Part shown: piece by piece, positions 23,434 to 26,678 of the stretch
Numbering within the stretch: position 1 is the stretch's first letter
How the letters are laid out: each line of letters opens with the position of its first letter
Source of the DNA: Tenacibaculum piscium
GTDB lineage: Bacteria; Bacteroidota; Bacteroidia; Flavobacteriales; Flavobacteriaceae
Assembly (NCBI RefSeq): GCF_021390715.1
Contig: NZ_JAJGWT010000003.1
Location: forward strand, 186,001-250,000
DNA: 64,000 nucleotides
Direction of reading: 5' to 3'
Translations under genes and position numbers: made by a program
The notes under the pieces: model-generated
Seen by the model: only the letters and a program-made list of their open reading frames with translations
What the model was told of the DNA's origin: nothing
Databases searched by the model: none

Positions 23434-24453
23434 ATGAAAAATATCAATATAAAAAATGATGCAGGACTTTTAGTACTCGCAATAAGATTGGTAATTGGTT
23501 GGACATATTTTTCAGCTTTTTGGAGAAGAACCATTTTAGCAAACAAACTAGATCCTGAAGTTGCGGGGTATATTGGTGAAAAATTTAATCACTTTTTACC
23601 TAATGCACTAGGCATAAAACCTATTATTCAGTATCTCGTTGAAAATCCAGATATGCTATGGTTAAACATGGTTATTTTTACTATTATTGAAGGAATTGTT
23701 GGCCTGTTTATTATCTTCGGATTATTTACCCGAATAATGAGTATTGGCGTATTTTTCTTAGCAATGGGAATTCTTCTTGGTTCAGGATGGATTGGCACTA
23801 CTTGTCTGGATGAATGGCAAATTGGAGTACTCGGTATTGCAACTGGTTTTGTCTTATTTTTAACAGGAAGTGGTACGTATTCATTAGATAATTATCTGAT
23901 TAAAAATAATTTTTCTATAACCAAAAAGAACTGGTTTGCTTGGTTAGCATCAGGAATTTTACCAATTAAAGACACTATATTTCCAAAAGTTGTACTCATT
24001 GGTTCACTGTTTATTTTAGGAATGACATTGATGACAAATCAAGTATTTCACGGCGGATTATGGGGTACACTTCACAACAAATCGGTAAAACCAACACTTG
24101 AAATTACACAAGGTAAAATAAAAAATAATATTCTTTCTTTTGATGTTTTTAGAACTGAAGGCGTTGATGTTTACGGCTCTTGGACCATCGCTATTGAATT
24201 ATTTGATGCACAAAAAAATACTATTTTTAAGTATAATCAAAAAGATTTAGCTTCCTTTAAAAAAGAAAATATTTCCAATTATTATATTGCCAAAATAAAA
24301 CCAGCAAAGCATAGTTTGATTATTCCTTTAGGAGCAAAAGCAACACTACGCTTTAAAAAAGATATATTAAACACACTATCAAAAGGAATATACACTGTAA
24401 AAATTACAGATATTAGTGGTGCATACTGGGAACATAAAATTTCTAAAAACTAA
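23434..24453 (+). CDS. DoxD-DoxA fusion, thiosulfate:quinone oxidoreductase-like
   Basis: In this 339-aa protein residues 1-150 form a DoxD-like four-span membrane domain (RLVIGWTYFSAFWRR, GLFTRIMSIGVFF, LGSGWIGTTCLDEWQIG). After another span, residues about 215-339 form a DoxA-like beta domain ending YTVKITDISGAYWEHKI. In Acidianus, DoxD and DoxA are separate subunits of an enzyme oxidising thiosulfate to tetrathionate with quinone reduction; here they are fused. It forms an operon with the DsrE gene and ends at a strong terminator. Confidence 0.82.
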   Translation: MKNINIKNDAGLLVLAIRLVIGWTYFSAFWRRTILANKLDPEVAGYIGEKFNHFLPNALGIKPIIQYLVENPDMLWLNMVIFTIIEGIVGLFIIFGLFTRIMSIGVFFLAMGILLGSGWIGTTCLDEWQIGVLGIATGFVLFLTGSGTYSLDNYLIKNNFSITKKNWFAWLASGILPIKDTIFPKVVLIGSLFILGMTLMTNQVFHGGLWGTLHNKSVKPTLEITQGKIKNNILSFDVFRTEGVDVYGSWTIAIELFDAQKNTIFKYNQKDLASFKKENISNYYIAKIKPAKHSLIIPLGAKATLRFKKDILNTLSKGIYTVKITDISGAYWEHKISKN

Positions 24454-24572: not shown

Positions 24573-25106
24573 ATGAATTTCGAAATTAAACGACTTAAAA
24601 ACATTACAGATACTTATTTTTCAGAAGCTTGGAAACTTTATCAAGAAGCTTTTCCTGAAGAAGAACGACGCTTATTAGACACACAAATTATCATCTTAAA
24701 AAATTCAAAATATCATTTTGAAGTGATACTTCATGAAAATAAATTTATTGGTTTTTTACTCTGGTGGAATTTTGAATCATTACATTTTATAGACCATTTT
24801 GCCACGGATTCAATCCATAGAAATAAAGGATATGGTAAAAAAATACTTGAAAATTTTATAAAAAATAGTCGTAAAACTGTTTTATTAGAAGTAGAATTAC
24901 CAAATAGTGAAATCAATAAACGTAGAATACAATTTTATGAACGAATTGGTTTTCAACTAAATTCACATTATTATGAAACCCCCGCTTTATCAGTAGGAAA
25001 AGAAGCTTTTCAATTACTTTTAATGTCATATCCTAGCCTTATTTGCTCAAAAGATTTTGAGAAATTTACCACAATATATCAACCTATTATTTTTAAAAAT
25101 AGGTAA
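24573..25106 (+). CDS. GNAT-family N-acetyltransferase
   Basis: This 177-aa protein has the GNAT acetyl-CoA-binding motif A as HRNKGYGKKILENF (about residues 87-100) and the beta4 IDHFATDSI strand. A C-terminal FYERIGFQLN motif precedes LLMSYP. Substrates of GNAT enzymes range from small amines to protein N-termini, and nothing nearby indicates which. It is upstream of the tyrS leader but has its own start. Confidence 0.82.
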   Translation: MNFEIKRLKNITDTYFSEAWKLYQEAFPEEERRLLDTQIIILKNSKYHFEVILHENKFIGFLLWWNFESLHFIDHFATDSIHRNKGYGKKILENFIKNSRKTVLLEVELPNSEINKRRIQFYERIGFQLNSHYYETPALSVGKEAFQLLLMSYPSLICSKDFEKFTTIYQPIIFKNR

Positions 25107-25141
25107 AAAAAACGGTTTTAAATTTTAATCGATTAGATAAC

Positions 25142-25172
25142 TTGTTTAACAACTTGTTTTTATATAATTTTG
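25142..25172 (+). promoter_or_regulatory. Promoter of the tyrS leader
   Basis: TTG at 25142-25144 and TAATTTTG at 25165-25172 are spaced by 20 bp, matching the Bacteroidota -33/-7 pattern. Transcription would start near 25179, giving a leader of about 260 nt before tyrS. Confidence 0.65.
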
Positions 25173-25180
25173 TAGCTTGA

Positions 25181-25220
25181 TTTTAATCTTATTTTTTAAG
25201 ATAAAATAATAAGATTAAAA
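25181..25220 (+). other. Hairpin at the 5' end of the tyrS leader transcript
   Basis: TTTTAATCTTATT (25181-25193) and its exact complement (25208-25220) form a 13-bp AU stem at the predicted transcript start. It may protect the 5' end or affect initiation; it is separate from the downstream attenuator. Confidence 0.5.
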
Positions 25221-25273
25221 ATTCAGCCTAAAATAAATAGGCAAAAAACAATTAAAGATTGTTAAATATCAAA

Positions 25274-25372
25274 ATGAAATTTTTGAAAAGCATATTACGT
25301 CTTCCTTTTTTCAGTACTTATTATTACCATATAATGAGTACTCGGATAGGCTATGCATATATTTTAAATTAA
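25274..25372 (+). CDS. Tyrosine-rich leader peptide (tyrL) of tyrS
   Basis: ATG 25274 to TAA 25370 encodes 32 residues. Five are Tyr: three consecutive codons (TAT TAT TAC, residues 16-18) and two more at residues 27 and 29. It lies between a good promoter and a terminator, just before a tyrosyl-tRNA synthetase gene. This enrichment matches leader peptides such as trpL, where ribosome stalling at regulatory codons decides between two RNA structures. It has no recognisable protein domain and is probably only translated for regulation. Confidence 0.75.
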   Translation: MKFLKSILRLPFFSTYYYHIMSTRIGYAYILN

Positions 25373-25428
25373 AAATACTATATACTACCAAAACCTAAAG
25401 CCCGAGCATTTTGCTCGGGCTTTTTTTT
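25313..25428 (+). promoter_or_regulatory. Predicted Tyr-responsive transcription attenuator of tyrS
   Basis: Segments 1 and 2 (25313-25324, 25331-25342) form a 12-bp hairpin with one G-U pair and contain the first Tyr codons. Segment 2' (25341-25350, CTCGGATAGG) can pair with 25394-25397 plus 25402-25406 (9 bp with an internal loop), an antiterminator. That uses the 5' arm of the terminator: 25397-25408 with 25412-25423, a 12-bp stem with GCCCGAGC, then eight Ts ending at 25428. Stalling at codons 16-18 would free 2' and prevent termination. The terminator ends 11 bp before the tyrS ATG. Confidence 0.72.
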
Positions 25429-25439
25429 ATGCAAAAAAA

Positions 25440-26645
25440 ATGGATACAATCAACAAATTAAAAGAAAATGTAGCAATTATTCTTCCTGAAAAAGGTCTCG
25501 AAGAAAAACTACAAGAAGTTAGCAAAGAAAATCGAAAATTAATTATTAAACTTGGGTTTGATCCTACTGCGCCAGATCTTCACTTAGGACATGCTGTGGT
25601 CTTAAAAAAATTAAGAGAATTTCAAGATTTAGGACATCATATAATAATATTAGTTGGAAGTTTTACCGCAAAAATTGGTGATCCTACTGGAAAAAATAAA
25701 AGTAGAAAACCGTTATCAACCAAAGAAGTACAGTATAATGCCGAAACTTATTTACAACAATTAGCTAAAATTATTGAGCTATCAAAAGCTGAAATTGTTT
25801 ATAATTCTGAATGGCTAGAAACACTTTCTTTTTCTGATGTTATTCAACTTTTATCGAAAGTTACGGTTGCTCAATTAATGCATCGAAATGATTTTAACAA
25901 ACGGTTTACAGAAAACACCCCAATTGCTATGCATGAATTGGTATATCCTATTTTACAAGGATATGATTCTGTAAAAATAAAAGCAGATATTGAAATGGGC
26001 GGAACCGATCAACTTTTTAACTGTACCATGGGAAGACAAATTCAGCAAAGCTTTAATATGAGTCCGCAAATAATAATGTGTATGCCGTTATTAAGAGGTT
26101 TAGATGGTAAAGAAAAAATGAGTAAATCACTCAACAATACCATTGGATTAACTGATGAACCAACTGATATTTTTGGTAAAACAATGTCTATTTCTGATGA
26201 TTTAATTCCCGAATTTTTAAAGCTTACAACTGATTTTTCAGTATTAGAAAAACAAGCAATTTTAAAACGGTTAAGTACGGGAGAAAATCCTATGGAAATT
26301 AAAAAAATAATCGCTAAAAATATTATTAAACAATATTATAATGAACAAGCAGCAAAAGATGCTGAACTTTTTTTTATCAATCAATTTCAAAGTAAAAAAG
26401 CCGAAAATAAAGCATATCATCCTGTAAATTTAAAATCGATTCAAGCAAAAGAAAATATCATTACGTTAACTAATTTATGTAGTTTCTTAAAGAATGATTT
26501 AACAAAATCTGCCATTAAAAGACTTATTATAAGTGGAGCGATTCAAGTCAATAGTCAAAAAATAACCGATCCGCAAACCAATATTTCACTAACCAAAGAA
26601 ATGAAAATTAAGATAGGAAAAAGAAGTTTTTATGAATTGAAATAA
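25440..26645 (+). CDS. tyrS: Tyrosyl-tRNA synthetase, TyrZ-like (KMSKS type)
   Basis: The protein is 401 aa. The class I signatures are HLGH in GFDPTAPDLHLGH and an exact KMSKS (KEKMSKSLNNT). The C-terminal S4-like RNA-binding domain begins around residue 335. It charges tRNA-Tyr. The usual flavobacterial TyrS is about 430 aa with a different N-terminus (recalled, not compared here), so this may be a TyrZ-clade enzyme, often a second, regulated copy. Expression is probably controlled by the upstream Tyr leader attenuator. Confidence 0.95.
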   Translation: MDTINKLKENVAIILPEKGLEEKLQEVSKENRKLIIKLGFDPTAPDLHLGHAVVLKKLREFQDLGHHIIILVGSFTAKIGDPTGKNKSRKPLSTKEVQYNAETYLQQLAKIIELSKAEIVYNSEWLETLSFSDVIQLLSKVTVAQLMHRNDFNKRFTENTPIAMHELVYPILQGYDSVKIKADIEMGGTDQLFNCTMGRQIQQSFNMSPQIIMCMPLLRGLDGKEKMSKSLNNTIGLTDEPTDIFGKTMSISDDLIPEFLKLTTDFSVLEKQAILKRLSTGENPMEIKKIIAKNIIKQYYNEQAAKDAELFFINQFQSKKAENKAYHPVNLKSIQAKENIITLTNLCSFLKNDLTKSAIKRLIISGAIQVNSQKITDPQTNISLTKEMKIKIGKRSFYELK

Positions 26646-26648
26646 CAA

Positions 26649-26678
26649 AAAATCCCAAGCCATAAAGCTTGGGATTTT
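26649..26678. terminator. Bidirectional terminator between tyrS and the DUF6952 gene
   Basis: AAAATCCCAAGC and GCTTGGGATTTT form a 12-bp stem with a 6-nt loop. A and T runs on both sides fit two convergent genes. Confidence 0.85.

Follow-up and report, generated by a model that had tools for sequence, protein, structure and literature searches.

This locus raises two questions: whether a short tyrosine-rich open reading frame (ORF) in front of a tyrosyl-tRNA synthetase (TyrRS) gene is a leader peptide that controls transcription of the gene, and which kind of TyrRS is placed under such control. The window analyzed here is a stretch of 64,000 nucleotides of Tenacibaculum piscium DNA. Judged from sequence comparisons, the locus very probably represents a ribosome-mediated attenuator that would induce an accessory TyrRS when the charging of Tyr-tRNA fails. 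The following elements were located:

25143-25172, + strand: promoter-like site, TTG at 25143-25145 plus TAATTTTG at 25165-25172, matching TAnnTTTG
25274-25372, + strand: leader ORF of 32 codons plus stop, with a counterpart before 102 of 102 related loci examined
25277-25324, + strand: leader codons 2-17, conserved at the peptide level (MKxLNxILRLPFFSxYY) according to frame-specific substitution counts in 95 sequences
25299-25324, + strand: segment 1, with a base arm (25299-25305) and an upper arm (25313-25324), from the MFE fold and helix counts in 29 relatives
25319-25327, + strand: Tyr codons 16-18 (TAT TAT TAC), of which 16-17 are invariant among relatives
25331-25351, + strand: segment 2, pairing with segment 1 or, via CTCGG (25341-25345) and TAGG (25347-25350), with segment 3
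25394-25408, + strand: segment 3, pairing with segment 2 via CCTA (25394-25397) and CCGAG (25402-25406), or alternatively with segment 4
25397-25428, + strand: intrinsic terminator 3:4 of 12 bp, hairpin at 25397-25423, T run to 25428
25440-26645, + strand: accessory TyrRS gene, 401 aa, TIGR00234 with 329.7 bits (cut-off 113.8)
26649-26678, no strand assigned (entered on the - strand): terminator-like hairpin directly 3′ of the accessory TyrRS gene

The first-pass annotation had described a −33/−7 promoter, a 32-codon ORF with Tyr at codons 16-18, 27 and 29, and three RNA pairings followed by a T run before the tyrS ATG. A TAnnTTTG box, which we take to be the Bacteroidota −33/−7 consensus, was located at 25165-25172, and the leader peptide MKFLKSILRLPFFSTYYYHIMSTRIGYAYILN carries Tyr at all five positions. 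The 1:2 hairpin (25313-25324/25331-25342, 12 bp), the 2:3 pairing (CTCGG/CCGAG and TAGG/CCTA), the terminator hairpin and the T run ahead of the ATG at 25440 were likewise recovered as described. The 1:2 hairpin is present in the MFE fold together with the terminator 3:4, and this fold adds a 1:2 base helix (25299-25305 with 25344-25346 and 25348-25351) that is absent from the annotation. The region of 159 nt between 25274 and 25432 folds 5.95 standard deviations below dinucleotide-shuffled sequences, none of the 200 shuffles being equally low. The gap between the promoter-like box and the leader start is 101 nt in the window (25173-25273), within which an AT-rich inverted repeat is visible by eye.

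A T-box or another known Rfam leader was ruled out, as only tRNAs reach the gathering score. The window has no T-box match that reaches this score, and the 49 matches up to an E-value of 10 at 25100-25500 do not include one either. The scores of Leu_leader (31.5/50), Thr_leader (20.9/55), Phe_leader (20.8/55) and Trp_leader (14.6/41) are all below the gathering score.

The gene had been annotated as tyrS. Its identity as a TyrRS holds (the closest solved chains are 1h3e and 6bqy), but it is not the housekeeping gene. A second TyrRS is encoded in the same genome (G000:C2), with 26% identity over the match, and the C-terminal families differ, the housekeeping enzyme having PF22421 and the accessory enzyme a match to S4 below threshold. 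A housekeeping TyrRS of this different subtype co-occurs in 22 of 22 tested genomes carrying the accessory gene. The 401-aa product is a second, accessory TyrRS beside the housekeeping enzyme. By analogy with the duplicated synthetases treated in parts of PMC9437257, we infer a role as a backup enzyme. An inhibitor-resistant or D-Tyr-excluding synthetase is proposed, also by analogy.

The accessory gene is distributed patchily: 4 of 58 genomes of the genus (that of the window included) have it, as do 19 of the 346 in the order sample. The genera named among its carriers include Flavobacterium, Chryseobacterium, Arenibacter, Winogradskyella, Empedobacter, Sphingobacterium, Rufibacter and Taibaiella, the last three of which presumably belong to orders other than that of the window. 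The window copy shares 74% identity with that of Sphingobacterium and 72% with copies of its own genus, which suggests horizontal transfer in the case of Sphingobacterium. In a comparison of the genus with the one other genus tested, the housekeeping enzymes share 71-72% identity within the genus and 64-66% across, and the accessory enzymes 65-72% across, so that elsewhere vertical descent followed by losses is no less possible than transfer. No neighbour recurs in at least three genus labels among 34 loci, except TyrRS itself and an ORF antisense to TyrRS. A tRNA-Tyr adjoining the accessory gene was found in none of 27 loci, and none of the 13 plasmid records matched reaches 60% identity. In the window, a fused DoxD-DoxA protein (PF04173 + PF07680) is encoded two genes upstream, at 23434-24453.

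For the analysis of the linkage between leader and gene, 102 accessory TyrRS loci were examined: 4 from the genus, 80 of 116 named relatives and 18 from the order sample. The leader pattern (at most 3 substitutions) was found upstream of the gene in all of them, yielding 95 distinct leader-to-ATG sequences. The start codon in the first 84 loci is ATG (80), GTG (3) or TTG (1). In the order sample of 346 genomes, 19 have the gene and exactly these 19 have a strong covariance-model hit (E ≤ 4.6e-15), and in the phylum sample of 395 genomes the 3 strong hits fall in the 3 genomes with a TyrRS at least 68% identical to that of the window. A chance short ORF before an ordinary terminator is ruled out by the leader at 102 of 102 loci. 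Short ORFs are common in the AT-rich DNA of the window, as this explanation would have it, but the fold z-score of −5.95 and the frame-specific selection described below also contradict it, and with the comparative data its probability is practically nil.

Besides the strong hits, the covariance model gave weak ones in these overlapping samples, 9 beyond the 3 strong in the phylum and 37 beyond the 19 strong in the order. The nine phylum loci, to which the weak order hits G262 and G163 belong, and five regions from order hits (G520, G613, G668, G478 and G626) were scanned for the peptide motif, which was found in G520 only and in decayed form. This G520 region (first in rank after the strong order hits, E 2.2e-7; L209, - strand, about 1697-1540) holds a decayed Tyr leader with a broken terminator. 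Its genome is without the accessory TyrRS at E 1e-60, with the housekeeping TyrRS present, and the decayed leader looks like a relic left by gene loss. Many other genomes of the phylum sample carry a TyrRS 40-47% identical to that of the window. Among the 27 best-listed loci of such more distant enzymes (44-47% identity) no convincing leader was detected, a single loose regex match (L129) being disbelieved. Short ORFs upstream of the housekeeping tyrS of the window's own genome hold at most 2 Tyr.

The Tyr enrichment upstream of orthologous genes, which the first-pass annotation had put forward as a check, is present throughout: codons 16 and 17 encode Tyr in 95 of 95 distinct leaders. Tyr 18 is found in 31 of 95 leaders, so that two consecutive Tyr codons are present in 64 and three in 31 of them. 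Thus, of the proposed control codons 16-18, the first two hold for the whole family and the third does not. In 83 of 95 sequences, the leader start is preceded at a distance of 4-9 nt by the end of a box that agrees with TAnnTTTG in at least five of its six letters. For this reason most of the relatives' leaders may be nearly leaderless, with the window as an exception at 101 nt. The shuffle control, which exists for TTTG alone, gives 4.6 expected cases of TTTG 4-10 nt before the start compared to 56 of 95 observed.

The conservation of the pairings was analyzed in 29 dereplicated leaders of 84 (alignment A1; 55 similar to a kept leader omitted). In the terminator state, 94.0% of the pairings are standard, compared to 89.4% in shuffled and 30.6-54.5% in slid alignments, and 46 cells show a change on both sides (16.2 in shuffles). 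The terminator helix 3:4 is paired in 97.8% of the cells. For the antiterminator the values are 92.6% compared to 89.5% (shuffled) and 12.3-51.7% (slid), with both-sided changes at two positions (C-G to U-A in 12 and U-A to C-G in 2 of 29 leaders). In 14 of 29 leaders the outermost antiterminator pair does not form, and the 1:2 base helix is paired to just 79.1%. The covariation scores of the terminator state and of the antiterminator were reached by none of 500 shuffles. Two measures less prone to relatedness do not clearly beat the shuffles. The number of pairs with both-sided change is 8 in the terminator state (shuffle mean 5.4, reached by 27 of 500) and 2 in the antiterminator (mean 2.3, reached by 424 of 500), and the number of further pair types is reached by 405 of 500 and 500 of 500 shuffles, respectively. 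The covariation proposed as a check on the three pairings is found as both-sided changes in all of them, with this reserve on the pair-counting measures.

Swapping of segments between species points in the same direction. The 2:3 duplexes of 28 leaders average −9.6 kcal/mol with their own segments and −7.8 kcal/mol with swapped ones, and the 1:2 hairpins −12.8 and −10.2 kcal/mol; in both cases none of 5000 permutations, which ignore relatedness among the 28 leaders, was as low. From pair changes and swap tests, an antiterminator that excludes both the terminator and the 1:2 hairpin appears to be conserved by pairing. An intrinsic terminator between leader ORF and gene is present in the window, and the finder missed it in one of 95 leaders (L040, mismatched stem).

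A folding model, in which the front edge of the ribosome was assumed 15 nt beyond the first P-site base, was applied to 93 of the 95 leaders (L040, with its mismatched terminator, and L099, with a CTTGG segment, were left out). With a ribosome stalled at codon 16 or 17, the probability of 2:3 is about 1 in 93 of 93 leaders. Without a ribosome it is 0.02 in the window, with a family mean of 0.37 and values above 0.5 in 32 of 93 leaders, and with a ribosome at codon 12 the mean is 0.75. Owing to the latter two results, the model supports the attenuation logic without being specific for the Tyr codons.

Under the proposed attenuation, a ribosome supplied with ample Tyr-tRNA would pass the Tyr codons and cover segment 2, so that the terminator 3:4 forms and the gene is off. 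When Tyr-tRNA is scarce, be it through starvation or because the housekeeping TyrRS fails or is inhibited, the ribosome would stall at codons 16-17 and mask segment 1, 2:3 would form, and the accessory TyrRS would be transcribed by read-through.

In addition to codons and pairings, the peptide itself was found to be conserved. Substitutions were counted by parsimony on the TyrRS tree (95 sequences). The in-frame counts for codons 2-17 were 163 (synonymous) and 73 (non-synonymous), with an omega of about 0.15, compared to 33/202 and 17/216 in the other two frames. This frame-specific pattern is the reason why the leader is counted as translated, and as such it is indirect evidence. With the control codons excluded (codons 2-15) the ratio is 149/73, or 150/76 on a second tree, and it is most pronounced in codons 7-13 (80/14). 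Per residue, synonymous and non-synonymous changes amount to 21/1 for Leu4, 15/1 for Leu8, 15/1 for Arg9, 17/0 for Pro11 and 14/0 for Tyr17, whereas positions 3, 6, 14 and 15 vary freely. After column shuffling of 29 leaders, a mean of 51.1 distinct residues (minimum 46 in 500) was obtained, compared to 45 observed.

The peptide constraint ends at Tyr17. In two gap-free groups (54 and 28 of the 95 sequences), omega for codons 2-17 and 18-28 is 0.07 vs. 3.9 and 0.28 vs. 1.3, respectively. Thus, the peptide is under selection up to the predicted stall site, as in arrest leaders, and codons 18-28 are not constrained. All 95 leaders have TAT at codon 16 with no inferred change, perhaps because of wobble decoding speed, while codon 17 changes synonymously between TAT and TAC 14 times. 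The distance from Tyr17 to segment 2 is 16, 13 or 19 nt in 59 leaders and 15 or 18 nt in the other 36, which places segment 2 in two different reading frames.

Two other leaders of the same genus were used as controls. One is a His leader (MxFIQxHHHHFxxCxQAx), located in front of hisG at 25 of 30 loci (L179-L208, e.g., L183; own hisG region L214), the regex yielding none at the other 5. Its codons 2-6 show 6/22 synonymous/non-synonymous changes (omega 1.13) and its codons 11-18 show 6/47; Phe3 and Ile4 are invariant as residues, yet with a single synonymous change. An Ile/Val-rich leader, e.g., MKKQILNIISIIVIVIILQG, precedes ilvD in the own genome (L237) and at ten further loci, so that 11 of 30 ilvD loci were used, with 4/17 changes in codons 2-8 (omega 1.35). 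Neither the 25 His nor the 11 Ile/Val leaders, which cover less divergence and fewer changes, gave a sign of selection on the peptide ahead of the control codons. The difference between codons 2-15 of the Tyr leader and codons 2-6 of the His leader has a Fisher p of 5e-6, with changes that are not fully independent.

The trp/his-type design of the first-pass annotation is correct in its anatomy; its plain version leaves the amino-acid conservation of codons 2-15 unexplained. A plain classical attenuator, for which Tyr codons and RNA pairings suffice and the conserved N-terminus would be incidental or of use in initiation, can refer to the presence of every classical element. Moreover, the early codons might matter for initiation in the nearly leaderless relatives, and codons 9-11 overlap the 1:2 base helix. 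However, an RNA constraint is not expected to enrich synonymous changes in a single frame, as seen in codons 2-15, the strongest signal in codons 7-13 lies far from the start, and no comparable excess is seen in the His and Ile/Val leaders of the genus. We consider the plain version rather unlikely.

If the peptide matters, it could act in several ways. An arrest-peptide switch whose signal is not charging but, for instance, free tyrosine, D-tyrosine or an inhibitor of TyrRS or of the ribosome would fit the conservation that reaches Tyr17 and goes no further, and arrest leaders sensing a free amino acid are known (PMC8429421, in part). The two Tyr codons invariant in all 95 leaders before a TyrRS gene are, in contrast, most simply a charge sensor, which makes such a switch improbable. 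A small protein acting in trans would account for selection at the peptide level, but this selection ends inside the ORF, and the sole leader found without its gene (G520, n=1) has decayed; this explanation is very improbable. The boundary at Tyr17 would be left unexplained by a peptide that is released or acts in trans, and a role of the nascent chain is therefore favoured.

At the stall, the conserved residues would fill the upper exit tunnel, and for this reason the nascent chain probably helps stalling. The chain MKxLNxILRLPFF in the exit tunnel would probably make the ribosome prone to stall at the Tyr codons, so that two of them could suffice. The leader may thus be a hybrid, a Tyr attenuator that doubles as an arrest-type peptide, in which a pre-slowed ribosome and two Tyr codons form a sensitive gauge of charging or of TyrRS inhibition, spread as a compact leader-plus-TyrRS cassette in several Bacteroidota groups. 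We rate the chances of this hybrid as even.

Such an attenuator would be a Tyr-specific leader outside the T-box world, placed on a spare synthetase. It would also be a leader found in nature that seemingly combines stalling at codons with stalling by the nascent chain, making the tuning of a classical attenuator by its peptide directly testable. The spare TyrRS and its control also point to a tyrosine-charging stress, through an inhibitor, D-tyrosine or starvation, to which many Bacteroidota may be exposed.

Firmicute tyrS and tyrZ genes are controlled by T-boxes, whereas the window locus is without a T-box or other Rfam leader. Bacillus TyrZ is likewise a second TyrRS beside the housekeeping enzyme. 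It is described as an accessory TyrRS selective against D-Tyr, and a passage of the same article states that the conditions controlling it are unknown (PMC9437257). For a flavobacterium, leader-peptide attenuation before amino-acid biosynthesis operons has been proposed and structured 5′-UTRs before aminoacyl-tRNA synthetase genes have been reported, so that the general mode of attenuation is already known in these bacteria (PMC9723704, in part). The elements named there, in the same family Flavobacteriaceae, precede pheA, hisG, ftsY, acsA, alaS and rimP, and the accessory tyrS is unnamed in the section covering them. No earlier description of the Tyr leader was found by titles and abstracts; a 2010 survey by Lopatovskaya et al., cited in PMC4833913, deals with the attenuation of aminoacyl-tRNA operons and might list the gene.

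The trp/his/phe/ilv-type leaders, including the hisG and ilvD leaders of the genus, likewise consist of a short ORF rich in cognate codons before a pathway gene. The Tyr leader differs from those of the genus by its peptide-level selection before the control codons, and it contains two or three consecutive Tyr compared to runs of three to six His in the His leader. The closest precedent is an auxiliary TrpRS system, which responds to Trp and reportedly belongs to Streptomyces, in contrast to Tyr and Bacteroidota here. Judged by the title of that study in the reference list of PMC4787780, both share an auxiliary synthetase gene under ribosome-mediated attenuation.

With the arrest leaders TnaC, SecM and Erm, the Tyr leader shares a sequence-specific conservation of residues that, at the point of stalling, would be located in the upper exit tunnel. 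TnaC senses free tryptophan. The conserved stretch of the Tyr leader, where stalling is predicted, differs from those of TnaC, SecM and Erm in that it ends at sense Tyr codons matching the downstream gene.
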